Part shown: positions 6,159 through 47,040 of the stretch, in pieces
How the letters are laid out: each line of letters begins with the position of its first letter
How positions within the stretch are numbered: position 1 is the first letter of the stretch
Virus record (IMG/VR): IMGVR_UViG_3300041809_003422
Location: 1 to 54,061 of that record
Origin: a virus
Length of the DNA stretch: 54,061 bases
Reading direction: 5' to 3' (one strand)
Program-made: the position numbers and the translations under genes
Notes under the pieces: generated by a model
The model's input: the letters and a program-made list of their open reading frames with translations, nothing else
What the model was told of the DNA's origin: nothing
Databases searched by the model: none

Positions 6159-6169
6159 ACGAATCACTC
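6159..6169 (-). repeat. AGTGATTCG element (perfect 11-mer)
   Basis: GAGTGATTCGT on the minus strand, overlapping the stop codon of one early gene and the start region of the next. One of 13 copies of the 9-mer core in the window. Confidence 0.8.
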
Positions 6170-6677
6170 ACTTCTTGGCGGCGGCAGCGGCAACCTGGGC
6201 GGCGGCGAGCGCGCCGGCGGAACCCGGCTTCGGCGTCGGCTGGGTCGGCGTGGCTGCGGGCGCCGGCTTGGCGGCAGGGACGGTCTTGGCTGCCGCGATC
6301 TGCGCAGCGGTGGCCGCGATGACTTCCTTGGCGACGATCACGGCCTCCTGCGTCGCGTCGAGATTCGGAACGGCTAGCAAAGCAGCCGCAACGGCGTCGA
6401 CCGACAGCAGATCGCCTTCGGCGTCGGCGACCTTGACGCCGACTGTGGCGAAATAGGACGCCGGATGCGTGACGTCGACGGTCAACCCCAACCGCGCGTT
6501 GAAGACGTAGTTTTTCTTGTCGACGGCGGCGCGCATCAGCGCCTTGAATTTCTGCGCCGGCGTCAAGGCGATCGCCGGGTGCGGCGGCTGCGCCGACGGC
6601 GTCATGTGCGGGTTCGGCATCCCTGCCGGGTGAGCCGGCGTCTGCGACGGGGTAGATTTGACTGCTGTGGTGGCCAT
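6168..6677 (-). CDS. Hypothetical Ala/Pro-rich protein
   Basis: A 169-residue protein. Residues 1-40 are low-complexity Pro/His/Ser, residues 40-125 look globular (TPAQKFKALMRAAVDKKNYVF...), and the tail is an Ala/Pro/Lys repeat region ending AAAAAKK. Abundant unknown phage proteins with this composition may be DNA-associated or structural, but nothing specific is visible. It is separated from the upstream gene by a 63-base gap that holds an AGTGATTCG element. Confidence 0.6.
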   Translation of the reverse strand: MATTAVKSTPSQTPAHPAGMPNPHMTPSAQPPHPAIALTPAQKFKALMRAAVDKKNYVFNARLGLTVDVTHPASYFATVGVKVADAEGDLLSVDAVAAALLAVPNLDATQEAVIVAKEVIAATAAQIAAAKTVPAAKPAPAATPTQPTPKPGSAGALAAAQVAAAAAKK

Positions 6678-6728
6678 CTGGTCTCTCCTAGACGGGTCGT
6701 GAATGCGTCCAAATCGGACTGAGTCGTT

Positions 6729-6739
6729 AGTGATTCGTC
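6729..6739 (+). repeat. AGTGATTCG element in gene junction
   Basis: TAGTGATTCGT on the plus strand, in the gap between the HTH gene ending at 6741 and the gene starting at 6677. It is the only intergenic copy that reads opposite to the local leftward transcription. Confidence 0.8.
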
Positions 6740-6740
6740 G

Positions 6741-6983
6741 TCAAGCGGCGATTGGCATCCGCTTGCGAAAAACGCCGTACGTGTTCCCCGGTTCGTAGCC
6801 GTAGATCGCGGCGATGGCGGCGAAGGTCGCGTCGTAGCCCTCGCGCAGCGTCAGCGCCCGCGTCACGTTCGTATTGCTGACGCCGATCAGCAGGGCGATC
6901 TTGGTCCGATCGCCAAGCTCAAGGCCGTTGGACAGCTTTGACGCCAGCCGGGCGCGCGTGATGATTTTGTCGTCGAGTCTCAT
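6741..6983 (-). CDS. Small HTH regulator
   Basis: An 80-residue protein starting MRLDDKIITRARLASK at 6983, with the four-base overlap to the upstream gene. Residues 12-55 (LASKLSNGLELGDRTKIALLIGVSNTNVTRAL) read as a helix-turn-helix, with the recognition helix around SNTNVTRAL, followed by a short helix and a basic tail. It resembles a minimal phage repressor or accessory DNA-binding protein. It sits directly downstream of the GcrA-like gene. Confidence 0.6.
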   Translation of the reverse strand: MRLDDKIITRARLASKLSNGLELGDRTKIALLIGVSNTNVTRALTLREGYDATFAAIAAIYGYEPGNTYGVFRKRMPIAA

Positions 6984-7546
6984 GCCGCCCTCCGGACGTA
7001 GACGACGCCGTGGTGATATTGGCAGTAGCTGGAGCGGCCCATCGTCGGCGCGCCGCAGCACGATCCGCCGTCGTCGATCCAGCGGCACTCGGCCGTCCGC
7101 GTCGCCAGGAATTCCACCCGCTTACTAGGCGGCTCGCCGGTGTGGTCGACGACCGGCGTCGGGAACCAATCGAATAGCGGCAGTCCGGTAGCGCGCACCG
7201 GAAGCGTGAAGGACCGCCCGAAGGTTCGCCGGCCGCCGACGGCAGCCCTGCCGACCGGCTTGAACGGCGTCGTCTTGGAAGAGCCCGCCAGCGAGATCGT
7301 CTCCACATGGGCGACCTTCTGTCGACCAGGGCGACGACCGTGGCCGGCGCCGAAGCGTTCGTCGCGAATGCGGCAGGCCTCGATGACCTCGGCGTTCAAA
7401 CGGCGACGCTGGCGGAGGATCACAGACAGGACGGCCGAGCGGCTGACGCCGAGCGGAGCGGCGATTTGCGAGGCGCTGGCGCCCGTCTTGAGAGCGGCGA
7501 CGACGGCGTCGACACGACCGCCAACGAGCCATTTCATCCGCATCAC
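6980..7546 (-). CDS. GcrA-like transcription regulator
   Basis: A 188-residue protein with the two-part layout of GcrA, the alphaproteobacterial cell-cycle regulator that binds RNA polymerase sigma-70 and prefers methylated GANTC sites. The N terminus (WLVGGRVDAVVAALKTGASASQIAAPLGVSRSAVLS, about residues 6-42) matches the GcrA helix-turn-helix pattern. The C terminus (ECRWIDDG...CCGAPT...SYCQYHH) matches the Cys/His sigma-binding domain, which in GcrA reads C.WP....FCG......YC..H. The start is GTG at 7546 or ATG at 7543. The linker is basic. This is the best candidate in the window for recognising the repeated GATTC-containing element. Confidence 0.75.
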   Translation of the reverse strand: MMRMKWLVGGRVDAVVAALKTGASASQIAAPLGVSRSAVLSVILRQRRRLNAEVIEACRIRDERFGAGHGRRPGRQKVAHVETISLAGSSKTTPFKPVGRAAVGGRRTFGRSFTLPVRATGLPLFDWFPTPVVDHTGEPPSKRVEFLATRTAECRWIDDGGSCCGAPTMGRSSYCQYHHGVVYVRRAA

Positions 7547-8330: not shown

Positions 8331-9061
8331 GCCGCCCTCCGGTCGGGCAGCGACGCCCACATCTTCTGGGCGACCGCACGCACCTTGCGGACATCGTCGC
8401 GGCAGTAGTGTCGAACCTTGGCGATCTCACCCTTGGCCCACAGATCAGCGACCATGGAGCCGTCGATCTCGCCCTTACCGTCGAGGCCGAGAGCCATGCA
8501 CAGTTTGTCGAGGCTAACGTAATCGCGTACGCCAGCCCAGGCCGTCATCGTGTCGAAAACGCAGGCATCCCACGGCTTGGGATTGATCGGCCACCACCAC
8601 GGCATCTTGACGCCAAGAATGATGGCGCGCTGCGTGATGACGCGAATGTCGAAACTGACGACGTTATGGCCGACGATGCGGATCGGATCGCTGAACTTCT
8701 TGAGGTCGTGAAGCCGGTCGGCTTGCGGACTCAGTTCCACATCACGGAAGAAATCGGCGATCAGCGTCTTCTCGTCGAAATCGTTCGACAGTCCGTCCCC
8801 CTCATCGGAGTCGACGGCCGTATAGCCGACCGGGTCGAAATCATTGATCGCAAACCCAATGACGCCGATGCGGCCGTAGGCGCCGTCGAGGGAGGTTTTG
8901 GCGATCGCCTCAGCGAGAGCGGCATGGCGCTCGTTGGCTTCCCATGCCGCGATCGTCTCGGCTTTCTTCATCGAAGCCGGCGGCTTGATGCCGGCGGCGA
9001 TCTTGGCGATCACGCGTTCATCGGCGGTCGGCAGCGTCTCGGTGTCAAGGTAGAGGTCCAT
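8327..9061 (-). CDS. DnaQ-like 3'-5' exonuclease
   Basis: A 244-residue protein of the DEDD superfamily that hydrolyses DNA or RNA from 3' ends with two metal ions. The three exonuclease motifs are visible: ExoI YLDTETLP (D6, E8), ExoII IVGHNVVSFDIR with its aspartate, and ExoIII YCRDDVRKV near the C terminus; the tyrosine before the last aspartates fits the DEDDy type, as in the proofreading domain of family B polymerases. The start is the ATG at 9061. It probably takes part in phage DNA replication, repair or nucleotide recycling. Confidence 0.8.
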   Translation of the reverse strand: MDLYLDTETLPTADERVIAKIAAGIKPPASMKKAETIAAWEANERHAALAEAIAKTSLDGAYGRIGVIGFAINDFDPVGYTAVDSDEGDGLSNDFDEKTLIADFFRDVELSPQADRLHDLKKFSDPIRIVGHNVVSFDIRVITQRAIILGVKMPWWWPINPKPWDACVFDTMTAWAGVRDYVSLDKLCMALGLDGKGEIDGSMVADLWAKGEIAKVRHYCRDDVRKVRAVAQKMWASLPDRRAA

Positions 9062-9389
9062 CGTCCTTGTCTCTCTTAATGTTGTCGGGGCGGAATCCGC
9101 GCTCCGCCGTGTCGCGCCAGTACTTTTCCATCGTCTCGACGGACTCGCGGAGCGCGACCAGGCCATTGAGCCAACCGCTGCACAGCTCGGCCAACTTGAG
9201 CCGCTGTTCGACTGTCAATGCGCGCTGCGCCGCGGCGACTTGGCTGACGAGCTGCTGCGATTTCCCGAATTCCTTCGCAAGCGGCGTGATCCAGCGCTCT
9301 CCGTAAAGCAGGCGGCCTGTGTCAGCGAGAATCTCTTGATCCGTCTTTGTCACTTTGCGGCTCGGGAATCCGATGCGTCTGATGACCAT
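9045..9389 (-). CDS. HTH protein, first gene of leftward early operon
   Basis: A 114-residue protein starting MVIRRIGFPSRKV at 9389. Residues about 19-60 (DQEILADTGRLLYGERWITPLAKEFGKSQQLVSQVAA) contain a helix-turn-helix (PLAKEFGKSQQLVSQV). It is the promoter-proximal gene of the leftward operon, a common place for a regulator that controls its own operon. Confidence 0.6.
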   Translation of the reverse strand: MVIRRIGFPSRKVTKTDQEILADTGRLLYGERWITPLAKEFGKSQQLVSQVAAAQRALTVEQRLKLAELCSGWLNGLVALRESVETMEKYWRDTAERGFRPDNIKRDKDDGPLP

Positions 9390-11488: not shown

Positions 11489-11499
11489 GAGATCACACA

Positions 11500-11724: not shown

Positions 11725-11726
11725 CG

Positions 11727-12061: not shown

Positions 12062-12409
12062 ATGCAGCGCACCTTCACCAGTCGCCAGCTTCGCCAGCAC
12101 GGCCAGGACCTCGCCGAGAAATTCGGCGGCATCGCAGCCCTGGCGCATACGCTCGGCTGCGACCAATCGCACCTGTCGAGATTCCTGCTTGGTCACGCCG
12201 CCACCAGCGGCGCGCTGCTCGCGGCGCTCGGTGTCCATTTCGACGTTCGGCAGGGACTATACGTCCAGGACGACGAAGCGGCAGGGCAGGGCGCGACGAA
12301 GATCAACGCGTCACTGGTCGACGAGAACCGCCGGCTGCGCGAGCAGATCAAGAGCCTGCACATCAAACTGAGCAAGGCCGAGGCCAAAATTGAATCCGAA
12401 GCCGCATAA
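12062..12409 (+). CDS. HTH DNA-binding protein with coiled-coil tail
   Basis: A 115-residue protein. Residues about 16-58 (DLAEKFGGIAALAHTLGCDQSHLSRFLLGHAATSG) form a Cro/C1-like helix-turn-helix, with CDQSHLSRFL as the likely recognition helix. Residues 80-115 are a coiled coil (NRRLREQIKSLHIKLSKAEAKIE) that could dimerise it. It is one of several candidates for the lysogeny regulator. Confidence 0.6.
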   Translation: MQRTFTSRQLRQHGQDLAEKFGGIAALAHTLGCDQSHLSRFLLGHAATSGALLAALGVHFDVRQGLYVQDDEAAGQGATKINASLVDENRRLREQIKSLHIKLSKAEAKIESEAA

Positions 12410-17028: not shown

Positions 17029-19186
17029 CCTTGCGGCCGTCCGGGAGATTACCGGGCCGGGGATCGAATCACTCTTTGGCGCGATCAAGCGCGCGGCCAA
17101 GACGTCGCTGATCTCGGCGCCGCCGGAGCCGATCGTCGACTGGATGGAGAGTCACGTCTATTTGCCGCCGGAAATGACCGACCGGCCTGGCAAGTTGCGG
17201 CTCAACAAGCTGCAAAAAGGCGTGTTCGCCGCGCTCCAGGAGCCGGGCGCGCGCTGGGTGTCGTTCCAGAAGCCGCCGCGATTCGGCGCCACGCTGGGGA
17301 CGGCGGCTGCGCTGCTCTATTTCGCGGCGCATGAGGGGCAGGACGTCTTCTATTCGGAGCGGTCCGAGGACTACGCCCAGGTCTTCTACAAGAAATACGT
17401 CTACCCAATGGTGACCGAGTCGAAGGACCTGGCGCCTTTGAAGCGTCCGGACACCCGCAGCGGCCGCCAGGACACCTGGCAGAACACGATCTTGACGACC
17501 GGCGCCGCGATCCAGCTTCGGTCGGCGGCGACCGACGGCGCCTTTCGACAGATCAAGGCCTATTTTTTGGTCATGGACGAATGCTCGGCCGCTGCCTACC
17601 AGGCCGGCAAGGCCGACAGCGAGGGCGACAAGACGAGCCTGGCGTGGAAGCGGGCGCAGCAGTTCAGAAATCCAGTCATGTTCCTTCCGTCGACGCCGAC
17701 CGAGGACGGCGTCTGCATCGTCTCGCGCGAGTACCGGCGCTCCGATCAGCGCGTGTTTGAGGTGCCGTGTCCGCATTGCGGCGTCATCCAGCCGCTGCAA
17801 CCCAACGTCGGACCCGACAAGGCGGGGCCAGGTCTCAAATACCGCGTCGATCCGGTCAGCGGAGAGATCGAGACTCGCAAGGACGAGCGCGGTGATGTGG
17901 TTCCGGATATCTGGTACCAGTGCCTGGATTGTGACAAGCCGATCCGTGAAGAATCCAAGGACTGGATGATTGAGCACGGCGACTGGCGCGCCACGGCGAC
18001 GCCGGCGGAGCCTGGCCTGATCGGATTTTACTGCTGGGGTATCTACTCAACCGATCCGCAGTCGACGTGGGTCGACATTGCCCGCCAGCATCGAGCGTCG
18101 CTCGCCGACCCGGCGATGCGCCAGCCGTTCAAAAATCTGGTGCTCGCGTTGCCGTGGGAGCGCCAGGAGCGGCGCGTCGTCCCGATCAACGAGTTGCAAG
18201 CTCGGGCCAAGCCGTGGCCGACGACCTGTCCGGAGTGGGTGCAATTCATCACCGCCGGCGTCGATAACCAGCAGGGCCGCGACGACGGCTCTCAGGTCGC
18301 ACGATCTGAGATAACTGTCGTCGGCTGGGGATTTGGCGAGGAATGCGCCGTCCTGGCTCACTATGTCGTCGAGGCGCGCCCGTTTACCGATCGATCAGCG
18401 CAGTTGGTCTATGAGGCGCTTGATCGTGTCTATTACACGCCCTCCGGACGCGCGCTCAAGGTCTACGCTACCGGCGTCGATATCGGCTACGATTTCGATC
18501 ATGGACTCGAATTTTGCTACAAACAGGCGAGCCGACAGCGCCGCATAATGGCGGTCCGTGGTCAGCCGACGATTGAGAACAAGCCGGCGTTCGCCTCGAC
18601 GCTGGGTCACTCGAAGAAAGACCCGAAACTGAAATTCCTGCGCATCTGGAAGCAGCAGCCAACCGGTCTGCTGATGGAGCGCTTGCAGCAGACGGTCGCC
18701 GGGCCGGGCGCGATCCATTTCCCGTCGTCGCTGTCGGTCGAGTATTACGAATCACTCGTCGCGGTGCATCGCGTCAACGACAAGGCCAAGAATCGCTCCT
18801 ACTGGGTCGACGATCCAGACAATGAGGCGATGGACTGCTGGGTCTACGCCTATGCCCGCATGCGGCACCTGATCGCCCTGCGGCCCGACATGCGCAAGCT
18901 GCTGATGGACCGTGGCATGTCCGGTCGGGATGAGGCTGCTAGCGAGTATGAAGGGCCGGACCGCTCAGCGCAGTCCGACCTCGCCAAGTCTGAGGCGCCG
19001 CCGAGCGAGTCTGTGGCTCCAAGCGCGGTGCCGACGAGGGCCGCGCAGGTCGCCGAGCCGGACTTTCCGCGCGTGTCGCAGCCGGCGTGGCGTCGAGAGG
19101 GTGTCAATGGCAACGGCCAAGCGCCTCGCGTTCCGTCGCCGCACCGGCGGTTTGGGTCGAACCAGGCGGGGCGCTCGCCCCTTTGA
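17009..19186 (+). CDS. Terminase large subunit (GpA family)
   Basis: A 725-residue packaging motor and nuclease that cuts concatemeric DNA and drives it into proheads. The N-terminal ATPase shows an arginine-containing P-loop-like segment (FQKPPRFGATLG, near 87-97) and Walker B FLVMDE ending at D190-E191. A zinc-finger-like pair follows (C254/C257 in CPHC, C305/C308 in CLDC). The nuclease domain has acidic motifs TAGVDNQQ, ATGVDIGYD and NEAMDCW. Length is typical of GpA. The last 80 residues are a Pro/Ser-rich tail. Two copies of the AGTGATTCG element lie within the gene. Confidence 0.92.
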   Translation: MQITRTDLAAVREITGPGIESLFGAIKRAAKTSLISAPPEPIVDWMESHVYLPPEMTDRPGKLRLNKLQKGVFAALQEPGARWVSFQKPPRFGATLGTAAALLYFAAHEGQDVFYSERSEDYAQVFYKKYVYPMVTESKDLAPLKRPDTRSGRQDTWQNTILTTGAAIQLRSAATDGAFRQIKAYFLVMDECSAAAYQAGKADSEGDKTSLAWKRAQQFRNPVMFLPSTPTEDGVCIVSREYRRSDQRVFEVPCPHCGVIQPLQPNVGPDKAGPGLKYRVDPVSGEIETRKDERGDVVPDIWYQCLDCDKPIREESKDWMIEHGDWRATATPAEPGLIGFYCWGIYSTDPQSTWVDIARQHRASLADPAMRQPFKNLVLALPWERQERRVVPINELQARAKPWPTTCPEWVQFITAGVDNQQGRDDGSQVARSEITVVGWGFGEECAVLAHYVVEARPFTDRSAQLVYEALDRVYYTPSGRALKVYATGVDIGYDFDHGLEFCYKQASRQRRIMAVRGQPTIENKPAFASTLGHSKKDPKLKFLRIWKQQPTGLLMERLQQTVAGPGAIHFPSSLSVEYYESLVAVHRVNDKAKNRSYWVDDPDNEAMDCWVYAYARMRHLIALRPDMRKLLMDRGMSGRDEAASEYEGPDRSAQSDLAKSEAPPSESVAPSAVPTRAAQVAEPDFPRVSQPAWRREGVNGNGQAPRVPSPHRRFGSNQAGRSPL
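17065..17075 (-). repeat. AGTGATTCG element in terminase gene
   Basis: GAGTGATTCGA on the minus strand near the start of the large terminase gene; in the sense strand it encodes E-S-L using the TCA serine codon. Confidence 0.8.
18747..18759 (-). repeat. AGTGATTCG element (13-bp near-palindrome)
   Basis: ACGAATCACTCGT on the plus strand; the full 13 bases form an inverted repeat with one mismatched pair. It lies inside the large terminase gene, coding E-S-L. Confidence 0.8.
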
Positions 19187-24436: not shown

Positions 24437-25932
24437 TCGAGATCGCCTTCACGCGCGTCGCGCCGCAGCCGGAGATCGTGTTTGGCGACGTCGCCGCCGA
24501 GCAGATCACGCTGACGCGCGTCGACGCCCAGCCAGGCATCGAGTTCGCGGATGGGAGTGATTCGTTCGTCGTCGAGTTGGCTGAGTATCTGGTCGGGCCT
24601 CCTGGCCGTGACGGCAATCCCGGCGCGCCCGGTACGACGACTTGGGAAGGCATCACCGACAAGCCAGCGATCCCCAGCAAGGTCTCGGAACTCGAAAACG
24701 ATTCAGGATTCCTGACGCCGGCGTCGATTCCTCCCGATATAGCTACGACCGACGACGTCGCCGCCGAGGCGGCCGCGCGCGCCGCCGCCGACGCAGACAC
24801 TTTCGCCAGCGCCAAGACTTACGCCGACGGCAAAGTCTCCGGGCTGGGAACGGCGTCGACCCATGCGGCAGAAGATTTCGATCCTGCCGGCGCCGCCGCG
24901 GCGGCTCGGGCGGCCGCCGAGGTCTACGCCGATGGCAAGGCTGCTGCGATCACGCCAGACAGCCTGTCCGTCTACACGCGCGACGAGGTCGACACCAAGG
25001 ATGGCGTGATCGCCGCCGCGGCGTCGGCGGCGGCCGCGGCCGCCCAGTCCGCCGCCGAGACCTACGCCGACGGCAAGGACGCGACGAATCTCGCGGCGGC
25101 CAAGGCCTATACGGACGCCGCGGCGGGCGCGATCCCGAAGAATGTGACCGACGGCGGCGGCTACACGCGGGCGCTGGTCGACTCCAAGGATGCTGACACG
25201 CTCGGCTATGCCGAGGCCTACACCGACACCAAGATCGCCGCGCTGATCGGCTCCGCGCCGGGGACGCTCGACACGCTGGGCGAGATCGCCGCGGCGATCG
25301 CCGCTGACGAAACCGGCGCGTCGGCCATGGCGGCGCAAATCGCGCTCAAGGCCTCTGAGGCCGATTTGCTGACGCATGAGGCCGATCACAGCAATCCGCA
25401 CGCGGTGACGGCCGACCAGGTCGGGGCTTACACCGAGGCGCAGACCGACGCCAAAGACGCGGCGACGCTCGCGGCGGCCAACGCCCATGCCGACGCCGAG
25501 GTCGGCGCGCTGGTCATCCCGCACGTCGCGGGCGACGTCGGCGCCTACACGCAGGCGCAGACCGACGCCAAAGACGCTGCGGCTCTGGCCTCCGCTGAGG
25601 CCTATGCGGCCGCCCAGGACGCCATCGAGCTTGCCGCCGCCAAGGCCTATGCGGCCGCCCAGGACGCGATCCAGCTTGCCGCTGCGAAGGCCTACGCCGA
25701 TGCCCAGGACGTCATCCAGCTTGCCGCCGCCAAGGCTTTCGCCACGGCCGCTGACGCCGCCGTGCTGACGTCCGCCGAGGCCTACACGTATTCGCAGATT
25801 CAGATCGACGACAAGGTCACCGGCGTTCTGCCGCCGGCGGCGCCGGACGGCGCTGCGCTGACGGCGCACGGCGGCGCGTGGATCGCCAATGCTTTTTTTG
25901 GCCCGATTCAATCGTGGCCGGCGCTGGTTTGA
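24433..25932 (+). CDS. Fibre protein with collagen-like and coiled-coil repeats
   Basis: A 499-residue protein beginning with GTG at 24433. Residues 55-68 carry collagen-type Gly-X-Y triplets (GPPGRDGNPGAPG), a common trimerisation element in phage fibres. After that come long alanine-rich repeats of the type AAKAYADA / DAATLAAANAHADA that form a trimeric shaft. Its place between capsid and head-tail connector genes is unusual for a tail fibre and may mean a head fibre or neck whisker. One AGTGATTCG element lies near the start. Confidence 0.7.
   Translation: MIEIAFTRVAPQPEIVFGDVAAEQITLTRVDAQPGIEFADGSDSFVVELAEYLVGPPGRDGNPGAPGTTTWEGITDKPAIPSKVSELENDSGFLTPASIPPDIATTDDVAAEAAARAAADADTFASAKTYADGKVSGLGTASTHAAEDFDPAGAAAAARAAAEVYADGKAAAITPDSLSVYTRDEVDTKDGVIAAAASAAAAAAQSAAETYADGKDATNLAAAKAYTDAAAGAIPKNVTDGGGYTRALVDSKDADTLGYAEAYTDTKIAALIGSAPGTLDTLGEIAAAIAADETGASAMAAQIALKASEADLLTHEADHSNPHAVTADQVGAYTEAQTDAKDAATLAAANAHADAEVGALVIPHVAGDVGAYTQAQTDAKDAAALASAEAYAAAQDAIELAAAKAYAAAQDAIQLAAAKAYADAQDVIQLAAAKAFATAADAAVLTSAEAYTYSQIQIDDKVTGVLPPAAPDGAALTAHGGAWIANAFFGPIQSWPALV
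24555..24565 (+). repeat. AGTGATTCG element (perfect 11-mer)
   Basis: GAGTGATTCGT inside the fibre gene, in the frame that codes S-D-S. Confidence 0.8.
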
Positions 25933-25934: not shown

Positions 25935-25945
25935 GAGTGATTCGA
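25935..25945 (+). repeat. AGTGATTCG element at gene start
   Basis: GAGTGATTCGA in the 12-base gap between two fibre genes; its last base is the A of the downstream ATG, and its GGAG-like 5' edge serves as the ribosome-binding site. Confidence 0.8.
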
Positions 25946-29932: not shown

Positions 29933-32900
29933 ATGGCGAATCGGCGCGAGGTCAGCGAGCAGCGCACGATCTGGACCGCCGAGGGCGTCGACACTGTCGT
30001 TGCCGGGGCCCAGCGAATCTCTGCGGCCTCAGCGGTGGCGTTCCAAAAGACGACCGAGGCGGCCGGCAAACAATCGGCGCTTCTCGCGGCGTCTCTAGCG
30101 AAATCCAACAAAGCAGCGTTCGAAGCGGCGTCCTCAGCGTCCAAGGCCGCCGTGTCGGGCAGCGGCGACCGTCTGTCTGCGGTGGCGGCTCAACGCCGCG
30201 CCGCGGCCATGGCGGTCGCCGCGCGCGCCGCATCCAAGGCTGTCGCCGATGCCGCCAATCGCACGATCGAGGCCTCGACCTCGGCGTCCCTGGCGCGCCA
30301 GAAGGTCAAGATCGAGGCCTTTAAGGCTTCCCTACGCAAGGAACTCGCTGACAAGACGACGACTCCCGAGGGCGCCGCACAGCGGCTGCGCTATGGCATC
30401 ATTCAAGCGCGCGCCGAGGCCGCGGCCGAGATCGAGGCGGCGAAGAAAACTGTCGCTGGAAAGCTCGCCGCCGGCGCGCAGCATGACGCCTCGACGGTCG
30501 CCGCCGTCCGCAACGCCGCGGCGCAGAACGCCGCCGCCAAGGCCGCCGAAGCGGCGGCGAAGCGCCAGGCAGAGGTCCACAAGCAGGTCGCGCAATCCGC
30601 CGCCGCGATGTGGCAGGCGATGGAGAAATTTGAGCAGATCGCGGTCAAGGCCTTCAAGGCCGCTTATCGCGCGACGCGCACCTTCATTCGCGCCTTGTCG
30701 AGCATCGCGCGCGCCATCATTTCGCTGATCAAGCACCTCGACCGCATGGCGAAGGCGGCGCTGCACGCCGGCGAGAAGATGGCGTCAGCGATGCTTGGGC
30801 CGCCGTTGCACGCCGTGCATGCGCTCGATCACGCCCTTCTCGGAGTGATTCGTCGTCTGTCGCGTCTGGCGACGCATGAGGCGTGGCGCATCGCAAAATA
30901 CGGCGTCGGCGCTTACGTCGCCGGCAGCAGCGCGCTGGCCTATGCGGCCAAGGACGCCGTGACGACGACGCAGCAGCGGGCGATCGACGTGCGCGATCAG
31001 GCATGGGACGCCCGTATGTCGCCGCAGGAATTGCAGGCGATCACCGGCGCCGCCAAGGCGTATGGCGCGCCGGTCGACGAGATTCTCAAGGCCTATAACG
31101 CCTTCCGCCAGTCCGTCTTCACGGCGCAGAGCGATCCGGAATCGCCTCAGGCGCAGATGCTGGCCCAGCTTGGGATCCAGACGACCTATAACGCCGGCAT
31201 GTACAAGGTCGCCCGCAATCCGAGCGATCTGTTTACTCAGTTCGCCGGCCGCGAAAACAGCATGGGCTACTACGCCGCCATGCAGGCGAGCAACACGTTG
31301 CTTGGCGGCCCGGACGCCATGAAGAACCAGGGGTTCTTTGACTGGGTCGGCCAGCGCGGCCCGCTCGCCTATCGCGAGGGGTTGCAGCGCGAGCAGATGA
31401 TGGGGACCTATCTGTCGCCGGCCGATATTGCGCGCGCGCGTGAGTGGCGGGCGACGATCGTCGACGTCAAGGATGCCTTCCTCGGCGTCAAAGAGGCGAT
31501 TTCCAAGCAGGTCTACCCCACTTTCAAAGCGCTCGCCGACGTCGCCGTGTCGTTCCTGACGACCTATCGGACGCAGATCGCCGATTTTGTCGGCAACCGC
31601 GTCAAGGCTTTGGCCTACAATATCGCCCAGCTCGTCTGGATAATCCACAAGGAAGCTGAAGCCTATTCGAAGGTGACGGACAAGGTCGCCTCGAAGATGG
31701 GCGTCAACCTGCGGCCTGGCGCCGGCGGGACCGACGACACCGGCGCGCCACTGTCTGGCGACCAGTCGATTGAGACGTCGCAGCCGGTCATCTTGCGCGC
31801 CTACAATTGGTTCAACGCCAACATCCGCGGCAAGATGATGGCGACGCTGCATTCGATCGCGGCGGCGGCCAAGACGGCCTACGCGGCCGCCGCGCGCTTC
31901 CTGGCGGCGTTCGGCATCAATTCTCTCCAGACGGCGGTCGACAAGCTGGTCGCCGCCGGCCACGCGATGCATGTTTTCGGTCATGAGGCGATGCTGGCGC
32001 TAAAGGGCGACTACATGACGCTCGCCGCTGAGAACGCGCCGGTGTTCCAGCGCCTGGCGTCCTGGCGCAACGCGACGGTCGCCTATGTCAAACAGGCGAT
32101 TATCGACGTCCGCAAGGTGCTGTCAGGCGACGCTCTGACCGACGACTCGACCTTCGTCGGCCGCATGGCGCAGCGCATCAAGGATTTCGTCCAGGCGCTG
32201 CCTGGCTGGATCGAGAAGATTAAAGCGACGCTCAAGGGCGCATGGGATTACGTCTCGAACCTTTGGCACAATTTCGAGGACGTGCTGCACGGCAAGAAAT
32301 CGACAGACTTTCCTTGGATGAACAAGATCAAGGACTGGTTCGACCTGATCGCGAAGCGCGTCGAAACGGCCATGGGTTGGTTCGAGAAGCTGTTCGGCGC
32401 GATGGAGAAGCTGACGCAGTTCCTCGGCTTCGATCTTGGCAGCGCGCTGATGTTCATCGGCCTCTTGAATCTGACGAAGGTGTTGCAAGGCGTCGCATTG
32501 GTCGCCGGAACGGTGAAGACCACTTTGCAGGGCATTGCTGCGCTTGGCGGCGTCGGCGCGGTGTCAGGTGCTGCCGGCGCTGGTGCGGAGGCTGGGGCAG
32601 CGGGGATTGGGGCTGCTGGCGCCGCAGCCGGAGGAGCCGCCTTGTTGGGCCTCGGTGTGGCTGCGGCCGTTGGGGGAACGGCTGCCTATGTCGTCCATGC
32701 GGCTAAGCAAGACTATCAGGGTCGTGTCGACGCAGAGACCGAACGTGAGCAAGCAGCGGCCGGGAGGTCGCGTGCGTCGCAGACAGGATGGTTCGTCCAC
32801 GATGTCATGGAAGCCGTCCAGCAAGCCAAGGCGGTCGCCAACGCATCGGGCGCGCGCACCCACGACGAGTATCTGCAAAACGTCGTTTCAGCGTTCTCTC

Positions 32901-33043
32901 AAACCAAAGGCGGTCAAGAGGCGATGAAGCTCCACATCTTCCTCAACGGCTATCAGATCGAGCAACTGACGGCCGGGCAGGCCAAGGATTTGTATCTGAA
33001 TCCTGGCGGCCGGATCGTCCAGGACACCGGTTTCAGCTTCTGA
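29933..33043 (+). CDS. Tape measure protein
   Basis: A 1036-residue protein that sets tail length and enters the host envelope during DNA ejection. It is the longest rightward gene, very rich in alanine, with long helical segments in residues 1-260 (AAAKAAEAAAKRQAEVHKQ), and a glycine/alanine-rich hydrophobic stretch near residues 845-925 (GVGAVSGAAGAGAEAGAAG...GLGVAAAVGGTAAYVV) that could cross the membrane. It follows the chaperone genes with a 4-base gap, and one AGTGATTCG element lies within it and another directly after it. Confidence 0.88.
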   Translation: MANRREVSEQRTIWTAEGVDTVVAGAQRISAASAVAFQKTTEAAGKQSALLAASLAKSNKAAFEAASSASKAAVSGSGDRLSAVAAQRRAAAMAVAARAASKAVADAANRTIEASTSASLARQKVKIEAFKASLRKELADKTTTPEGAAQRLRYGIIQARAEAAAEIEAAKKTVAGKLAAGAQHDASTVAAVRNAAAQNAAAKAAEAAAKRQAEVHKQVAQSAAAMWQAMEKFEQIAVKAFKAAYRATRTFIRALSSIARAIISLIKHLDRMAKAALHAGEKMASAMLGPPLHAVHALDHALLGVIRRLSRLATHEAWRIAKYGVGAYVAGSSALAYAAKDAVTTTQQRAIDVRDQAWDARMSPQELQAITGAAKAYGAPVDEILKAYNAFRQSVFTAQSDPESPQAQMLAQLGIQTTYNAGMYKVARNPSDLFTQFAGRENSMGYYAAMQASNTLLGGPDAMKNQGFFDWVGQRGPLAYREGLQREQMMGTYLSPADIARAREWRATIVDVKDAFLGVKEAISKQVYPTFKALADVAVSFLTTYRTQIADFVGNRVKALAYNIAQLVWIIHKEAEAYSKVTDKVASKMGVNLRPGAGGTDDTGAPLSGDQSIETSQPVILRAYNWFNANIRGKMMATLHSIAAAAKTAYAAAARFLAAFGINSLQTAVDKLVAAGHAMHVFGHEAMLALKGDYMTLAAENAPVFQRLASWRNATVAYVKQAIIDVRKVLSGDALTDDSTFVGRMAQRIKDFVQALPGWIEKIKATLKGAWDYVSNLWHNFEDVLHGKKSTDFPWMNKIKDWFDLIAKRVETAMGWFEKLFGAMEKLTQFLGFDLGSALMFIGLLNLTKVLQGVALVAGTVKTTLQGIAALGGVGAVSGAAGAGAEAGAAGIGAAGAAAGGAALLGLGVAAAVGGTAAYVVHAAKQDYQGRVDAETEREQAAAGRSRASQTGWFVHDVMEAVQQAKAVANASGARTHDEYLQNVVSAFSQTKGGQEAMKLHIFLNGYQIEQLTAGQAKDLYLNPGGRIVQDTGFSF
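30843..30853 (+). repeat. AGTGATTCG element (perfect 11-mer)
   Basis: GAGTGATTCGT inside the tape-measure gene; here it is read as V-I-R, a different frame from the E-S-L copies. Confidence 0.8.
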
Positions 33044-33052
33044 GTGATTCGT
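33042..33052 (+). repeat. AGTGATTCG element at gene junction
   Basis: GAGTGATTCGT begins within the tape-measure stop codon and ends one base before the ATG of the next gene, filling the whole junction. Confidence 0.8.
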
Positions 33053-33053
33053 A

Positions 33054-33601: not shown

Positions 33602-35839
33602 GTGACGACTCATGTCTATGGGATAGGAGGGGGCCGAACGTTCACGCGTATTGACGTGTGGACGCACTATTTCTCCTACCTGGAGACACTCGACGAGGTC
33701 TTGACCGACGCCCACCTTCGCAACGACGAGCAGGTCGTGTCCTGCACGATGCGCGCCGAGCGCGGCGGCGTGTGGACGGCGTCGCTGCGGATCAAGAATC
33801 CCGGACTGACGCTGTTCGCGCCTGGTCGGCAGATTTATTGCGCCATCATCGAGTCGCCCGATGGCACGATCGCCAACAGCCGAATTCTTGGCAAAGGACG
33901 AATCACTCCCGCCGTCAACGACATGACGGGGATGACGATCGATATCGAGGTCGTCTTCGCGCCGGCGAATCTGCGCGATCTGATCTGGCAGTTCTTGCTG
34001 TCGAGCAATCTGACGACCCTTCCGTGGTTCAATCCGGCCTACGACGATATCAGCTTCGACAAGCCCGAAGACGTCCTCAAGGCCTCTGGTCTGCTGCTGC
34101 ACGTCGACCCGGTGACGCACGTCATCTCGACCACCGATTCCCTGATCGGAGACGAGACCAACCTCGACAACAAATACGATTGGAAGAGCCTCAAGATCGA
34201 GACGAGCGGCGTCCCGCCAGTCCACCGTGTCAAGCTGCGTCTGGCGGTCGAGTGGACGCAGCACGCCCAGGGCGCGATCAACATCGCCCAGGCGCTGACC
34301 GATCCGACGACTGGCTGCATGGTGACGACGCTGTCGGGCGCCGTGTCGGATTTCATGCCGAATTCTATGCCGGGTCAGTATGTGACCTTCGCAAACGGCA
34401 CCGGGTGGACGCCAGACTATTCGCAGATCAGCGTTGATTACACTAAGTTTGGACCTTTCTATACGGGGAGAACTCGCCTCGTTCAGCAAACCCATTTCTA
34501 CTGGGCTTCCGACGCCAGCCATCAGGTCGTCGGCGGCGTCGACATGCCGGTGCCCGGTTATAAATCCGAACTGGTCGAGCAAGAGATCGACGAGTGCTGC
34601 TCGCTTTGGGGCTACAGCTACAAGTGCACGTTCGCCTGGTTCCGCTACGAATACACGCAGCAGCGTCGCGAGTTCGTGACGATCCTTTACGAATATCCTC
34701 TTCAGCCGGTCATCGGCACGCTCACTGAGCTTGATCTCGGCACGGTCAGTGTCACCGATCTGCTGACCAACTACCAGCCTAACCCTGCGCCTCCGCCGGC
34801 GTCGGACGCCTTCGGGAATTACGTCGCGCCGTGGGATCCCTTCATCGCGGTCCAGCCGTTCGACCCGTCGGCGATCTACATGACGGGCAATTTGGTGACG
34901 TTCGGCGACAACCTCTACCGCTGCACCGCCGACAACGTGCAGGGCAACTTCTATCAGCCGATCGGCGAGGGTCTGGCGGCCTACACCGGCCATCCGAATT
35001 GGATTCTGGTCGACCGGATTTCCGCGCTGTCGTCGCCGATCGCGCCGGCGTTTGTCGGCTCGTCTGCCGGCGGCATGTGCATAGAGCACGGCATCCTGCG
35101 GTGCCGCAACGCCGCGCGCGCCCGCTCGGAATATTTCACCGTCGCATTCGAGACGGATTGGGATCACGGCGTCCCTATCACTCTGCTCAATTCGGTGCGC
35201 ATCACGGCGCTGATCCGCACGACGGGCGTTGTCCAGCCGCTGCTCGGCAAGGTGCGCAAGATCGAGCGCGTGATCGATCCGATCAAGGGCAAACGCGTCA
35301 AGATCGAGATCGGCGTCTGTGTCGGCACCGGCTTCATGGGCTATCCGACGCCGGCGTTGATGGGCGATGCGTCGCCTGATTTTGCTGCATGGTTCAACGG
35401 CCAGACGACCGAGCTTTACGGAACCTTCAACTACTTCAACGGAGGTTGGCAGGGCTTGTTCCCAGGCCTGGCGGGCTTCACCGGCTACTATCCAGACTCG
35501 TCGATTCTTGGGTCGTTCGCGAACAATGACTACCTATGGACGGCCGCCAGCGACCCGGTGATCATTCCGGTTGACGCCTCTCAGCTTTCGAATCCAGGCT
35601 ACGCAGTGTGGAAGGTCGACCGCTACGGCACGGCGGCCGAGCAGTGCGCCGCGGCCACGTCTTACGCCATGTCCGGCATCGATCCGCGCGACGCGATCCG
35701 AGATAACCCGACGCATCTGGAGGTTTACATGCGCCCGCTGGTGAGCGAGGGCGTCATCCAGCGCAACGTCGACGTCGCCGCCGCCGCGACGGCGTCGGTG
35801 CGCGGCATTGATCTCTCGACGCCCGGAGGCGAGCCATGA
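33602..35839 (+). CDS. Tail tip / hub protein with carbohydrate-binding-like insert
   Basis: A 745-residue protein starting with GTG. The first 230 residues are a beta-rich hub-like part (SCTMRAERGGVWTASLRIKNPG...). Residues about 409-475 contain an insert of the pattern AIYMTGNLVTFGDNLYRCTADN...NWILVD, which resembles the small aromatic-rich carbohydrate-binding modules (CBM5/12-like: Y..G..V.....LY.C.......W). This could bind a surface polysaccharide. One AGTGATTCG element lies within. Confidence 0.6.
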   Translation: MTTHVYGIGGGRTFTRIDVWTHYFSYLETLDEVLTDAHLRNDEQVVSCTMRAERGGVWTASLRIKNPGLTLFAPGRQIYCAIIESPDGTIANSRILGKGRITPAVNDMTGMTIDIEVVFAPANLRDLIWQFLLSSNLTTLPWFNPAYDDISFDKPEDVLKASGLLLHVDPVTHVISTTDSLIGDETNLDNKYDWKSLKIETSGVPPVHRVKLRLAVEWTQHAQGAINIAQALTDPTTGCMVTTLSGAVSDFMPNSMPGQYVTFANGTGWTPDYSQISVDYTKFGPFYTGRTRLVQQTHFYWASDASHQVVGGVDMPVPGYKSELVEQEIDECCSLWGYSYKCTFAWFRYEYTQQRREFVTILYEYPLQPVIGTLTELDLGTVSVTDLLTNYQPNPAPPPASDAFGNYVAPWDPFIAVQPFDPSAIYMTGNLVTFGDNLYRCTADNVQGNFYQPIGEGLAAYTGHPNWILVDRISALSSPIAPAFVGSSAGGMCIEHGILRCRNAARARSEYFTVAFETDWDHGVPITLLNSVRITALIRTTGVVQPLLGKVRKIERVIDPIKGKRVKIEIGVCVGTGFMGYPTPALMGDASPDFAAWFNGQTTELYGTFNYFNGGWQGLFPGLAGFTGYYPDSSILGSFANNDYLWTAASDPVIIPVDASQLSNPGYAVWKVDRYGTAAEQCAAATSYAMSGIDPRDAIRDNPTHLEVYMRPLVSEGVIQRNVDVAAAATASVRGIDLSTPGGEP
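33898..33908 (-). repeat. AGTGATTCG element (perfect 11-mer)
   Basis: GAGTGATTCGT on the minus strand inside the tail-tip gene, read in sense as R-I-T. Confidence 0.8.
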
Positions 35840-37325: not shown

Positions 37326-40300
37326 CGACGCCGCCTGGATGAGCCGCGACCCCTTCTTGATCTCGCCGCGCGCCACTGCGCCGACCATCGTCGTCTCGCG
37401 GGCCGCGCATTCGCGGCTGCGGCGCTGCTCCAGCGTGCCGACGACCGCCTCGAATTTCACGTCTTGCGGGAACGGCTTCGCGGCTGTTCTGGAGCCGCAG
37501 ACCTCGATAACCTTGACGCCGGCGTCTAGGTCGACGCGGCGCTTGTAGCCGTGATTGGCGTTGATGATCCATGCCGCCGGGTCGTCGACGAAGGCTGGCA
37601 CATACGATTCTTTGTGGACCGTGACGCCGAGTGATTCGTCGATCAATTCGTAGACGTATTTGGCGAATCCCTTGCCGACGCGCGACTTGAGGCCGTCCTT
37701 GGTCATCGGTGTCAGCACCCGGTCGACGATTTCGAGCGAGCCAGCGCCGAGGTCTGGCGCGACGGCGGCGGTGGTGCGCGGGTCGGCGATGCGGGCTCTC
37801 CGGATCGCTTCGAAGGCCTCGGAATCCTTGGCGATATCGTCAATGTGGACGAGGTCGTCGACGATGCAATCCTCGGGGATCGAGGTGCCGAGCATGACAG
37901 CCAGCGGCGCTTCGCCTTCGCGGAAGACGGTGCGTAGGCGGCCGAAGAACTGGTCGATCTCTTCTTCGCGGTATTGCCGCTGGACAATGCTCGCCCAATG
38001 CCCCTGGTGTTTGGGGACAAGAATCACCTCGTCGACGCCGTCGCGCTTCTTGACGACGAGCGGCGCCATCAGCGGCCGAAGTTCCTTGCCGTCGTCGTCG
38101 AGCCCGTTGCCGTTGCGATCAATAGGTTCTTCGGGCTCCAGGTCGTCGTAAGTCAGCGCGCCGACGATGCCGTCGATAAACTGGATCGGCATGTCCATGC
38201 GGCCGACGCAGAGCGCGTAGGAGTGCAGCTTGGCGTCGTCGCGGCCGCGCAGGTCGCCGAAATGCATGTCGTCGACGTTATCAGTGTGGGCGTAGATCGA
38301 GTTCATTTCCGCCCGGATCGGCTTGGCGAACGCCTCGATGCCGCGACCGAAACCGAACATCAGACCCATCTTCGACCGCACCTGATTGACCTTGTTTTGC
38401 CGTATCGCGGCATAGAGGCCGCCGCGCGAGCCTCCTTTGTGCGCCGCCGGCGACAGCGACTGATTCGAGTAGGTGGAATCGATGACGGCAATCGTCCGCT
38501 GGTGCATCGCGCCTTTGACGCGGACGGTCTCGACCTTGCGGCCTTCCCACAGCTTGGCGATGATTTCTTCATGTCCGGAGGCGTCGAGCATCAGCGTCGG
38601 CAGCTTGCCGAAATTGTTCTCTTGGCGCCACGACAGACGCAGCGACGGATCGCCGCCGGGCCCGTTGACCCATTGTAGCCGCTTGTCGCTTTTGCCCCTG
38701 GCGCGTGGCGTGTAGCTGCCAAGAAGACCGGTTTCCTCGGCCAGGCGCAGGTGCGGCCGGTCGAACTCGACGGCCAGCATGCGCTCTTGCAGGATTTTCC
38801 ATGCCCGCCACTCTGCGGCGATCTTTGATCCCTGCGGCTGTTCGACGAGCTTTTTCGCGCCCATCAGCGTCATCCCAGGCGTCACCTTGCGATGGGCGTC
38901 CATGGCGTTCGAGCAGACCTGGATCGCGTCGGCGACAAGTTGCTTGCCGGTGATCGTCTCCTTGCCGCTGCCGAGAACGGTGTCGAGCAGCGCGACGGCG
39001 GGGTCGCCTTTGACGGCGGCGGCGCGCAGGACGACTTTGCATGCGTCGTCGTGGCCTCGCAGGATGTGCTCAGGCTGGATGCCGACCGCCTTCTGATGCT
39101 TCAAAGTGCGCGGTAGCGGGCGTGGAAGCTTGAATGTGTCGATCGGAATCGTCGTCGAGGCGACGAGTCCGGTCCATGCGCGCTCGTCGATCACGACGGC
39201 CGCGACCTCTTTAAGCTGCGCCGGGATTTTGGTGTCGAGGAACGCCGTCGGGCACAGCACCAGGTCGACATGTTCGATCTGCCGCTTCTGCATCTGATAG
39301 GGGCAGGTCTCATAGTGCGAGCAGTAGGTCGTCTCGCCGTCCTGGCCCTCGGATTCGCAGAGAGTCGACGTGCTGTAGCCGGCGCCTTGGAGGGTCGTGA
39401 TGATCTCCTGGCCGAGGGCGCATTTCCGCGCCTTGCCTTCCATGGTCATCACCCGCAGACCGGCTTGGCGAATTTGAACCGCCTCGCCCTCAAGGTCGTC
39501 GTCGCCGACGCCGGCGTAGCCCTTGACGGTGGTGATGTTCTTATAGGACGGCATCATCATCAGGATTGGCTTGCCGAGCCGGCCCTTTTCGGCGATCTGG
39601 TCGCGCAGCATCCTGACGAAAGCCGAGGTCTTTCCGGCGCCGGCCGGCGCGATCATCAGGCGCACCGTGTCTAGCGCCGCCTTGGCTTCGTCGTCCTCGT
39701 CGCGCACCGCCTTCCAGAGAAGATCGAGCCACGTCTGAATGCCGTCGACGACCTCGTCGCGAACGCGCGACGTCTCCGGGGCGCGGTCCTTCAATAGGGC
39801 GCGCTCGGCGCGCTTCTGCTCCGCCCCCTCAGTGATTCGTTCGACGACTTTGATCGGCGTCCGCTGGGCGACCGGGACCAGCAGCGCGGCGATATCCTCG
39901 TCGTCCGACGCCGTCGACACGGCGCTGACCGGCGTCGAGATCGTGCCGTCGTCGCCGCGATAGACGATGCGGGTCTTGAACTCGCCGCTGGCGACGCGGG
40001 CCATGGTGCGGCGCAGCTTCTCGGCGATCTGTCCGCGCAGCCGGTTATCCCAGCCGTCGAGCGATAGGTGCTCGATCGCCTCGGCCTCAATGGCTGCGGC
40101 GAGTGATTCGTATGACGCGTTCGGGTTGAACGCCGCCCAGTCTCCTACGCGGCGATTGATCCAGCCCTCACGGCCGTCGACCACCTTGCCTCCGACGATG
40201 CGGACGCCGCTGACAGCGTTGACGCCGGCCGGCTTGATCAGGTCGCCGACGACAATTGCGCGGTCGAGCGGCTGACCGGGTCCCGACGATGCCCGTGGCG

Positions 40301-44231: not shown

Positions 44232-44617
44232 CGGACCAAGAGACGCCGCGCAAACACGCCGACGACGGCCGCGACTTCGTGCAGATCATCGCTCAACTGG
44301 TGCTGGCGCTCGACGACCTCCGCAAGACTGGCGTCGTCAAGGACTTCGGCGTCCGACGGCTGATCCACGACAACAAAGACTGGGCGACGGCGTTCATGGG
44401 CGTCGACCTCGACAAGATGGCGTTCGAGCGCGGGAACCCGCCGCAGTTTGGCGTCCCGTTCAAGCACGAAACGCTTGGCATGATGGCGATTGTCCGGTCG
44501 GGCCCGGAGCAGATGGACGCCTACCGCATCTGCCGCGCCGCGTGGCGCTTCAACGACCAGATGCCCGAGCACCTTCGCCAGTCGGCCGAGCCGCCGAAGC
44601 GGAAGAAAGCAGCGTGA
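44228..44617 (+). CDS. Hypothetical protein
   Basis: A 129-residue soluble protein (MTDQETPRKHADDGRDFVQII...) with the ATGA overlap to the previous gene and a basic C-terminal end (PPKRKKAA). No family recognised. Confidence 0.5.
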   Translation: MTDQETPRKHADDGRDFVQIIAQLVLALDDLRKTGVVKDFGVRRLIHDNKDWATAFMGVDLDKMAFERGNPPQFGVPFKHETLGMMAIVRSGPEQMDAYRICRAAWRFNDQMPEHLRQSAEPPKRKKAA

Positions 44618-44644
44618 AAATCTCCGTCACCTAGCGAGGACAGC

Positions 44645-45055
44645 ATGCGCAAGGCCTCTATCTGTGTCCTGATTCTGATCGCCGCGCTGCTGGCCGTCCT
44701 CATCGCCGGCGCAGCCATGGCCGCCGATCAGCCGCCGGCTCCGGTCGCGACGCCGGCATGCACGGCGCTTAAGCAATTCCGCTCTGAGGCGGCCATCGTG
44801 GGCACCAAGACGATGGTCCTCGGCGGCGACCAGTCAAACCTCGCCGCCGTCATCACCGACACGCTGAGCAACGTCGGCGCGCCGGCCGTGATGATCGCGA
44901 AGGACTACCTGATCGTCGCGCATGGCGACGGGCTATTGATCTATCCGATCATCGCCGGAGCGATCTGCTCACGCCCACACGCCGAACTCGACTCGGTGGC
45001 GGCGCACGCTCTGATGGATAAGCTTCTCGCCGCCCTCCTGAGATCGCAGGCGTGA
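44645..45055 (+). CDS. Exported hypothetical protein
   Basis: A 136-residue protein with a clear Sec signal peptide (KASICVLILIAALLAVLIAGAAMAA, cleavage expected after AMA). The mature part has two cysteines (PACTAL, AICSRP) that could pair. Probably periplasmic; located between the lysis genes and the phosphoesterase gene. Confidence 0.6.
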   Translation: MRKASICVLILIAALLAVLIAGAAMAADQPPAPVATPACTALKQFRSEAAIVGTKTMVLGGDQSNLAAVITDTLSNVGAPAVMIAKDYLIVAHGDGLLIYPIIAGAICSRPHAELDSVAAHALMDKLLAALLRSQA

Positions 45056-47040
45056 AGGCGGCGATCGACTACCGAGACCCGGCGGCCATCGTCAGGGCAT
45101 ATCGAGAGCACGGTCGATCCATTAGCGCAGTCTGCAAGGCGCTCGGCCTCAGCTATCCCTATTTCGGCGAGCGGCTGCGCTGGGCTCGCTGCCGGCTCGG
45201 CTTGTCGATCGCCGATATCAAAGGCGACACGCCGCTGCCGGCGCCAAAGGTTGTGATTGAGGAATCTTCGATCCGCGAGGCGTCTCCGCCGCGGGCCGCC
45301 GGCGCGCCCAAGGCGGCCAGCGACGACGCCAAGACGACGCCGAAGCAGCATGCCTGCAAGCGTGCTGATTGGCTGCAAGAGTCGCTCTACGCGATGATCA
45401 CCCGCTCGCGCTGGCCGGTGATCAACCCCGAATGCGTCGTCATCGAGAGCCGCGTCACCGAGAAATACAACAAGCGGACGGAAACCTACGAAGAACACGA
45501 ACTCGCCCTGCGCACCTACGTCTCCGACGACATGCGCGCCGCGCCGATCCTCGACTGCAAGGGGCGGCGGTTCTTCTTCGGGCGGGCGCAGAACCAAACG
45601 CCAGTCGACCAAGGCCTGTGGACGAACCTCTTGGCCTACGCCGAATGGATGGGCGCCGACGTCGTGATCGGCCCCGACACCTATGAGACGGCCTGGTGGC
45701 ACGAAGCCAACGAGTTTTCGCGCCGCTACGCGCCGGAGGTCGAGGACTATCTGTGCTTCGGCCGGCTGGAGATCGGCGACGACTTCATTTTCCTGGGCGA
45801 CATGAACGTCATGACGACGGCCGCCCGCCCGGTGACCGATCTGACGGCGCAATCCAAGGGCAAGTGGTGCGTCGTCCCGCACTCGAAGATGCAGCTTGAA
45901 TCGGTGCCTTCGCTCGACCCCGACAAGCCGGCGCGCCAGATCATGACGACGGGCAGTGTCACGACGCCAAAGGTCATCCCGCGCAAGGCGGGCGTGAAGA
46001 GCATCTTCGACCACATCATGGGCTTCCTGGTGGTCGAAATCGACGACGAAGGCGTCGTTCACTGCCGCCAGGTCAACGCCGAGGACGACGGCTCGTTCTT
46101 CGACCTCGACCACCGGGTCGAGAACGGCGTCGTCACCACCACCAGCGACAGCGTGCGCGGAATCGTCTTCGGCGACGTCCACCGCGCCAAGCTCGACCGG
46201 TCGAACGAAGAGGACGTCATCGCGTCGTTCGGATTCGACCCCAAGAGCAACATGTGGGGCGACGAATCACTCGTCACGCACCTGCACCCCAAGGACGTCT
46301 ATTTCCACGACCTGCACGACGCCGGTCCCGACAATCACCACAACTGGGATGATATCGGCATGGCCGTCGAGCTGGCGGCGCGCCGGATGCACACGGTAGA
46401 GGACGAGATACGCGCCGACGGCGAGTTCCTGCGGACGTTCCGCGAGTTCCACCCCGAGCCGGCGATCAAGGTCGTCGAGTCGAACCACGACATAATGTTG
46501 GACAGGTGGATCAAGGAGGCCCGGTACCGCGACGGCTTCAATGTGCTGTTCGGCCTGCACCTGGAGAAAGCGCAGTTGACCTGGCGGACACAGGTCGCCA
46601 AGGCGCTCGACGCCCGCGAGACGCCGCCCAAGTTCTCGCTGCTCGAATACGCGATCCGCGAATTCCAGCCCGATCTTGCCGACATCGAGTGGCTCTACGA
46701 CGGCGACTCGCATGTCGTCCTGGACGTCGAACTCGGCCACCACGGCTTCCGCGGCGCAAACGGCGCCCGATCGTCGACCGTCGGCTATTCACGCATGGGT
46801 CGCAAGATCATGACCGGAGACCCGCATTCGCCGGCGATTCTCGGGGGCACCTATCGCGTCGGCTGTATGGGCCGCAAGCACGGCTACAATAAGGGCCCGT
46901 CCGGATGGTCGGTAACCCACGGCATCCTCTACGAAAACGGCAAGCGGGCGCTGGTGACGATCCAGCACGGCCGCTATTGCCTGAAAGGCTACGGCCGACC
47001 GATCTACGGCGTCGGCGAACGGCTCAAGGAAGCCGCTTGA
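45052..47040 (+). CDS. Phosphoesterase resembling phage T5 A1, with N-terminal HTH
   Basis: A 662-residue protein starting with GTG. Residues 10-45 (DPAAIVRAYREHGRSISAVCKALGLS) form a transposase-type helix-turn-helix. The C-terminal half has metallophosphoesterase-like metal sites: IVFGDVHRAKLD (D and H), VYFHDLHDAGPDNHHN, VVESNHDIMLDRW (the N-H-D motif), and ELGHHGFRGANG. The architecture recalls T5 A1, which is needed for the second step of DNA entry and host DNA degradation. Its timing and role here are unknown. An AGTGATTCG element lies inside. Confidence 0.6.
   Translation: MKAAIDYRDPAAIVRAYREHGRSISAVCKALGLSYPYFGERLRWARCRLGLSIADIKGDTPLPAPKVVIEESSIREASPPRAAGAPKAASDDAKTTPKQHACKRADWLQESLYAMITRSRWPVINPECVVIESRVTEKYNKRTETYEEHELALRTYVSDDMRAAPILDCKGRRFFFGRAQNQTPVDQGLWTNLLAYAEWMGADVVIGPDTYETAWWHEANEFSRRYAPEVEDYLCFGRLEIGDDFIFLGDMNVMTTAARPVTDLTAQSKGKWCVVPHSKMQLESVPSLDPDKPARQIMTTGSVTTPKVIPRKAGVKSIFDHIMGFLVVEIDDEGVVHCRQVNAEDDGSFFDLDHRVENGVVTTTSDSVRGIVFGDVHRAKLDRSNEEDVIASFGFDPKSNMWGDESLVTHLHPKDVYFHDLHDAGPDNHHNWDDIGMAVELAARRMHTVEDEIRADGEFLRTFREFHPEPAIKVVESNHDIMLDRWIKEARYRDGFNVLFGLHLEKAQLTWRTQVAKALDARETPPKFSLLEYAIREFQPDLADIEWLYDGDSHVVLDVELGHHGFRGANGARSSTVGYSRMGRKIMTGDPHSPAILGGTYRVGCMGRKHGYNKGPSGWSVTHGILYENGKRALVTIQHGRYCLKGYGRPIYGVGERLKEAA
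46262..46274 (-). repeat. AGTGATTCG element (13-bp near-palindrome)
   Basis: ACGAATCACTCGT on the plus strand, identical over all 13 bases to the copy at 18747-18759, inside the phosphoesterase gene (read as E-S-L). Confidence 0.8.

Follow-up and report, generated by a model that had tools for sequence, protein, structure and literature searches.

A short DNA word, GAGTGATTCGT, recurs at dispersed positions in the genome of an uncultured phage from peat (IMG/VR virus record IMGVR_UViG_3300041809_003422, analysed over its whole length of 54,061 bases, hereafter the window; 63% GC). That its copies form a selected, phage-specific, dispersed and asymmetric set is well supported, and the word, with its core AGTGATTC[G/T], probably marks an array of sites to which one phage regulator binds. 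Tentatively, we favor a reading in which about 15 putative sites serve a single transcription regulator of the phage, the likeliest reader being the GcrA-family protein encoded by gene g15, with silencing or operator action as the effect.

Statistics and sharpness of the word

The exact 9-mer AGTGATTCG occurred 13 times in the window, eight times on the plus strand and five times on the minus strand, and nine copies extended to the full 11-mer GAGTGATTCGT; the positions on both strands and both counts agreed with the initial annotation, which had described a stoperator-like operator set far in excess of chance. Dinucleotide shuffles predicted 0.60 copies of the 9-mer and an order-3 Markov model 0.34, the latter also predicting 0.02 copies of the 11-mer. 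The word was the most over-represented of the window at k = 9, 10, and 11, with log-likelihood scores of 34-46 compared to at most 13.1 across 20 simulated genomes. The codon-aware null that the annotation had proposed led to the same result: nine copies lay wholly within genes, whereas synonymous-codon shuffles yielded 0.11 on average and never more than 3. The coding copies fall into four peptide contexts in unrelated proteins (ESL, RIT, VIR, and SDS, all as annotated) and use the rare codons TCA (7% of Ser), AGT (3%), CGA (6%), ACT (8%), and CGT (9%), the first of which the annotation had also singled out. A conserved peptide was rejected as the cause on the basis of these four contexts and the codon-shuffle null.

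Each single-base neighbor of GAGTGATTCG was present in zero or one copy in the window; therefore, recognition is sharp. The 8-mer AGTGATTC was found 15 times (the 13 copies and two variants), followed by G in 13 cases and by T in two, and all 15 occurrences of AGTGANTC read GATTC, with GAGTC, GACTC, and GAATC at zero. No consistent signal was detected beyond the 11-mer, and the flanks were not conserved. Because of the null models, the sharp neighbors, the core followed by G or T, and the flanks devoid of signal, the word was defined as a selected asymmetric DNA element of 10-11 bp, and it is near certain that it is real and selected. The near-palindromic extension described earlier as typical of a dimer-binding site had been overstated: the form ACGAATCACTCGT, with an additional AC, was seen in only two of the 13 copies (18748 and 46263). 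A dimer palindrome was rejected on this count and on the absence of the symmetric forms GAATNATTC and GAGTNACTC.

Placement of the sites

Four of the 13 exact copies lie at gene junctions, those already annotated as such (cores at 6160, 6729, 25936, and 33043). A full 11-mer (6159..6169, minus strand) starts at the stop codon of g13 and is separated from the start of g12 by 3-4 nt; TAGTGATTCGT (6728..6738, plus strand) occupies the g14/g13 junction; GAGTGATTCGA (25935..25945, plus strand) falls within the 12 nt that separate g41 from g42 and touches the g42 ATG; and another full 11-mer (33042..33052, plus strand) overlaps the g48 stop codon and ends 1 nt before the g49 ATG. The two near-matches of the initial annotation were also recovered and are intergenic: GAGTGATTCTA (1942..1952, minus strand) between the integrase gene and g3, and CAGTGATTCTT (47042..47052, minus strand) directly behind the T5 A1-like gene g61. 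When these variants are included, six of 15 cores are junctional, an enrichment over chance (P=0.0016), and three sites sit precisely at the transition from a stop codon to the start of the following gene.

The remaining nine copies are intragenic. The TerL gene contains GAGTGATTCGA (17064..17074, minus strand, IESL) and a full 11-mer (18747..18757, minus strand, YESL), and the primase-like gene g53 contains three sites, all on the plus strand: two full 11-mers (37629..37639, DESL, and 40101..40111, YESL) and CAGTGATTCGT (39830..39840, RIT). Single full 11-mers are located in the tail/fiber-like gene g41 (24555..24565, plus strand, SDS), g48 (30843..30853, plus strand, GVIR), g50 (33898..33908, minus strand, RIT), and g61 (46262..46272, minus strand, DESL). 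Relative to transcription, five sites run with it and eight against it. Internal repeats were also observed within g41 (25067-25743).

The phage, its probable host, and related phages

A tyrosine integrase (622..1671, minus strand) marks the phage as temperate. Its head genes are lambda-like (terminase, portal, protease, decoration, and major head protein), and other products include a 1,225-amino acid Prim-Pol/helicase-like protein, an endolysin, a spanin, and the T5 A1-like protein. The 51-bp attachment core (53451..53501, plus strand) matches, base for base, the 3' portion of a Hyphomicrobiales tRNA-Lys(TTT); in the genome collection, the sole match to a 45-base stretch of the core was one Hyphomicrobiales metagenome-assembled genome from a bog. 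Because of this match, the host is probably a bog Hyphomicrobiales. Beyond the core, positions 53783-54061 form a direct repeat with 2192-2469 (92% identical), the right copy being a frameshifted duplicate of g3. Near the same end, a perfect inverted repeat (53093-53120, CGAATCGGTCA-TCTTC-TGACCGATTCG) has GANTC in both arms, and positions 50671-52647 encode a 658-amino acid, FtsH-like phage protein with AAA and peptidase M41 domains.

The same sites were present in three near-identical contigs of other metagenomes (99.99-100% identity). In genome G004, which is likely a relative of the host, AGTGATTCG had six copies in 3.8 Mb and the 11-mer none, and seven related genomes (~35 Mb) held the 11-mer once. 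These counts ruled out a host-wide word of the uptake or Chi-like kind and are in keeping with the earlier view of a phage operator set. When relatives were searched by TerL, A1-like protein, and primase in viral and bacterial genomes, those recovered were either near-identical copies of the phage or at most ~50% identical and devoid of the word, with no intermediate relative. The word was absent from related prophages of the same bacterial order or family. The conservation at homologous places foreseen in the initial annotation was thus not found; however, these relatives share only 30-42% TerL identity, and a different dispersed word was found in at least one of them, a pattern to be expected from heteroimmune relatives.

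This relative is prophage G374, which has structural genes in common with the phage and its own dispersed word, TGCAAGATT(C), in nine copies (C11:148400-195240; L189, L190, L222, L223), mostly within ~60 bp of gene starts; the 10-mer TGCAAGATTC occurred five times in the 5.9-Mb genome, always within the prophage region. Dispersed dyads were found in G665 (C23:403257-427660; CGTGGCC-TTGCACG-GGCCACG, six copies) and in G529 (C2; CGTGGCCnGTTCTAGGTCACG, four copies). Since G374, G665, and G529 carry words of their own, it is not unusual for related prophages to have private dispersed words. The G665 and G529 dyads have the same arms and different conserved 7-bp centers. Of the 96 sequences compared, each 14 kb or longer, the window had the strongest word; this comparison somewhat favors the longer window, as most of the others were pieces of 14-22 kb.

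The GcrA-family protein g15

Mention of a GcrA-like protein in the initial annotation proved fruitful, as the published extended motif of GcrA is present within the word. The protein g15 (6980..7543, minus strand, 187 amino acids) matches PF07750 with 28.0 bits (cut-off 26.9) and comprises an N-terminal helix-turn-helix (HTH) and a C-terminal CRW...CC...YCxxH region, aligned with GcrA proteins of the host group; a search of the PDB with g15 gave no match. Its leftward operon is arranged g15-g14-site-g13-site-g12 and thus includes two sites. In the likely host relative, GcrA was detected with E=1.4e-51, together with an open reading frame with a RAMA domain, a putative CcrM-type methylase. As quoted in PMC7987155, the proposal for Caulobacter is that GcrA activates methylated GANTC sites only, and only within TGATTCG or, more broadly, YGAKTCK; that paper found no such preference for Brevundimonas. 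The window word reads AG + TGATTC[G/T], and all 15 AGTGATTC copies fit TGATTCG / YGAKTCK, for which the chance in a random 11-mer of the same composition is ~0.004. The match is suggestive only, because the comparison was made after the word had been seen.

We considered g15 the likeliest reader because every copy has TGATTC[G/T] around GANTC and two sites lie in its own operon. Together with CcrM methylation, it is the leading but unproven candidate. The bound protein would most likely hold or block RNA polymerase across the phage operons. The outcome would be silencing across the genome or an operator effect, possibly dependent on CcrM methylation, and not the activation of ordinary promoters. 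Blocking rather than activation is suggested because the sites are mostly intragenic, occur on both strands, and are not coupled to -10/-35 elements. It is rather unlikely, though worth stating, that g15 and host CcrM methylation jointly read the array and tie prophage silencing or induction to replication and methylation state in the host cell cycle.

A parallel comes from phage phiCbK, which encodes a GcrA homologue (PMC3556154) and an A1-like protein. Its genome (JX100813; L225-L227) carries the dispersed GANTC word TGAATCTTGAC in 16 copies in 150 kb, often preceded by TGTCG, and the two 50-kb stretches measured show a two- to threefold depletion of GANTC in general. This co-occurrence lends support to the idea that phage GcrA proteins and dispersed GANTC words are linked. 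However, in TGAATCTTGAC a CcrM GANTC site directly adjoins a TTGAC -35 box, and the word is directed toward the genes downstream of it; the window word has neither property. The phiCbK genome paper uses 'promoter' once and TTGAC never (PMC3556154).

Several observations weigh against g15 as reader. The region of its recognition helix is unlike that of cellular GcrA. Known GcrA targets are promoters, and no promoter signal was found at the window sites (score 11.0 compared to 10.7 +/- 1.2 in controls; no -10 element at a fixed offset), which led us to reject the word as a promoter element. Overall, GANTC is neither enriched nor strongly depleted in the window (229 versus 258 expected), and the sites could be read by any of four other HTH-like proteins. 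The G374 word often ends in GATTC, and no GcrA gene was found in its region. No GANTC word was detected in Caulobacter phage GB2A, which has a GcrA-like C-terminus, around four divergent GcrA paralogues (G665, G200), or around three further GcrA-like loci, the chromosomal ones not being shown prophages. GcrA as a general cause of GANTC words was rejected, phiCbK being positive and GB2A and the other GcrA-like loci negative.

Comparison with known systems

Like the stoperators of mycobacteriophage L5 and cluster A, the window sites are dispersed, asymmetric, near-identical short sequences in a temperate phage, and related phages have different words (PMC9283540, PMC6550527). L5 has 20-30 sites of 13-14 bp, and the window 13-15 sites of 10-11 bp. 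Most cluster A stoperators occupy short intergenic spaces, with an orientation that follows transcription, and repression is lost when a site is reversed (PMC9283540, PMC6550527). In contrast, nine of the 13 window sites are intragenic and most run against transcription, and family searches recognized no L5-type repressor in the phage. The stoperator analogy of the initial annotation thus held for a selected, dispersed, asymmetric, and phage-specific set and failed for orientation with transcription and short intergenic location; the array can work like a stoperator set, though these two tested defining features were not observed. The C1 operators of P1 are likewise asymmetric and widely dispersed, numbering 22 (PMC8546580); unlike the window sites, they are 17-bp AT-rich sequences, and no C1 homologue was recognized in the window phage.

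In sequence, the word resembles the GcrA/CcrM sites of Alphaproteobacteria, TGATTCG / YGAKTCK around the CcrM GANTC, as quoted in PMC7987155. The phage encodes a GcrA-family protein, and the likely host has GcrA and CcrM-type genes. Unlike GcrA sites in promoters, the window motif is extended 5' by (G)AG, is mostly intragenic, and shows no promoter signals.

Alternative explanations

A classical immunity array, in which a phage repressor (g14, g19, g25, g27, or another small HTH protein) acts on operators or road-blocks like those of P1 C1 or L5 and the GANTC is coincidental, is a genuine possibility, though we do not consider it probable. It would suit an integrase-bearing temperate phage whose asymmetric sites are dispersed mostly in long stretches of lytic genes, and G374, a relative in structural genes, has a different word, as expected of heteroimmune relatives. 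Candidate proteins are also at hand. The genes g14 (6741..6983, minus strand, 80 amino acids, no family match) and g19 (9045..9389, minus strand, divergent from g20) encode small proteins judged HTH-like by eye, the latter with an all-helical model of low confidence, and g27 (12062..12409, plus strand) is weakly CII/HTH_3-like, below cut-off. AlphaFold single-sequence models were uninformative (pLDDT 65 for g19 and 34 for g31). However, family searches recognized no repressor, the orientation is unlike that in L5 and most sites are intragenic, and the YGAKTCK inside the word would have to be a coincidence at the 0.4% level. A role at the DNA level, in partition or condensation, replication or primase entry, packaging, or self-recognition against a nuclease, seems improbable to us. 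Both orientations, the intragenic positions, and the lack of promoter signals would suit a strand-neutral mark, and three sites fall within the primase gene, but no ParA/ParB-like gene was recognized among the proteins scanned, which included some but not all of the small genes, and the junction enrichment with exact stop-site-start placement suggests coupling with transcription or translation.

The T5 A1-like protein g61 (45052..47040, plus strand; phrog_1745, E=3e-137) is a very unlikely reader. Its N-terminal stretch is HTH-like (HTH_23, a weak match at E=0.025), a variant site lies directly behind its gene, and T5 A1 is reported in PMC3556154 to co-precipitate with RNA polymerase, whose transcription it alters. 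Proteins related to g61 bind RNA polymerase and may have a DNA-binding domain at the N terminus. Strong dispersed words occurred in 15 of 52 A1-bearing viral contigs compared to none of 25 TerL-only contigs; however, most of the A1 contigs come from a single T5-like lineage, and the words they carry are dyads located between genes. In the relative G568, where the A1-like, primase, and RuvC-like genes follow the order seen in the window, no word of comparable strength was present, and the A1-like protein was rejected as a general reader, being correlated with words in viral contigs and not in this relative. Dyads such as TAAGTCAGTTCTGACTTA are scattered between the genes of T5-like contigs that encode A1 (L110, L139, L142, L153, and others), one of the dyads immediately following the A1 gene. 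The g61 protein is 47% identical to A1 proteins of lytic Rhizobium phages and sits here in an integrase-bearing phage. Finally, chance, a repeated peptide, a host-wide word, or an assembly artefact has a negligible probability: five of the nine coding copies do encode E-S-L, but the four contexts lie in unrelated proteins against a null expectation of 0.11, the host relative has only six copies, and contigs from other metagenomes reproduce the sites.

Significance

Detailed descriptions of dispersed repressor-site arrays exist for cluster A mycobacteriophages and P1. The array reported here belongs to a phage of Alphaproteobacteria, is intragenic and orientation-free, and is built on the CcrM/GcrA epigenetic motif, features that those systems lack. 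If the GcrA-like protein reads it, phage GcrA proteins, known since phiCbK and of unproven role, would gain a concrete set of targets, and their link to host cell-cycle methylation would become directly testable.

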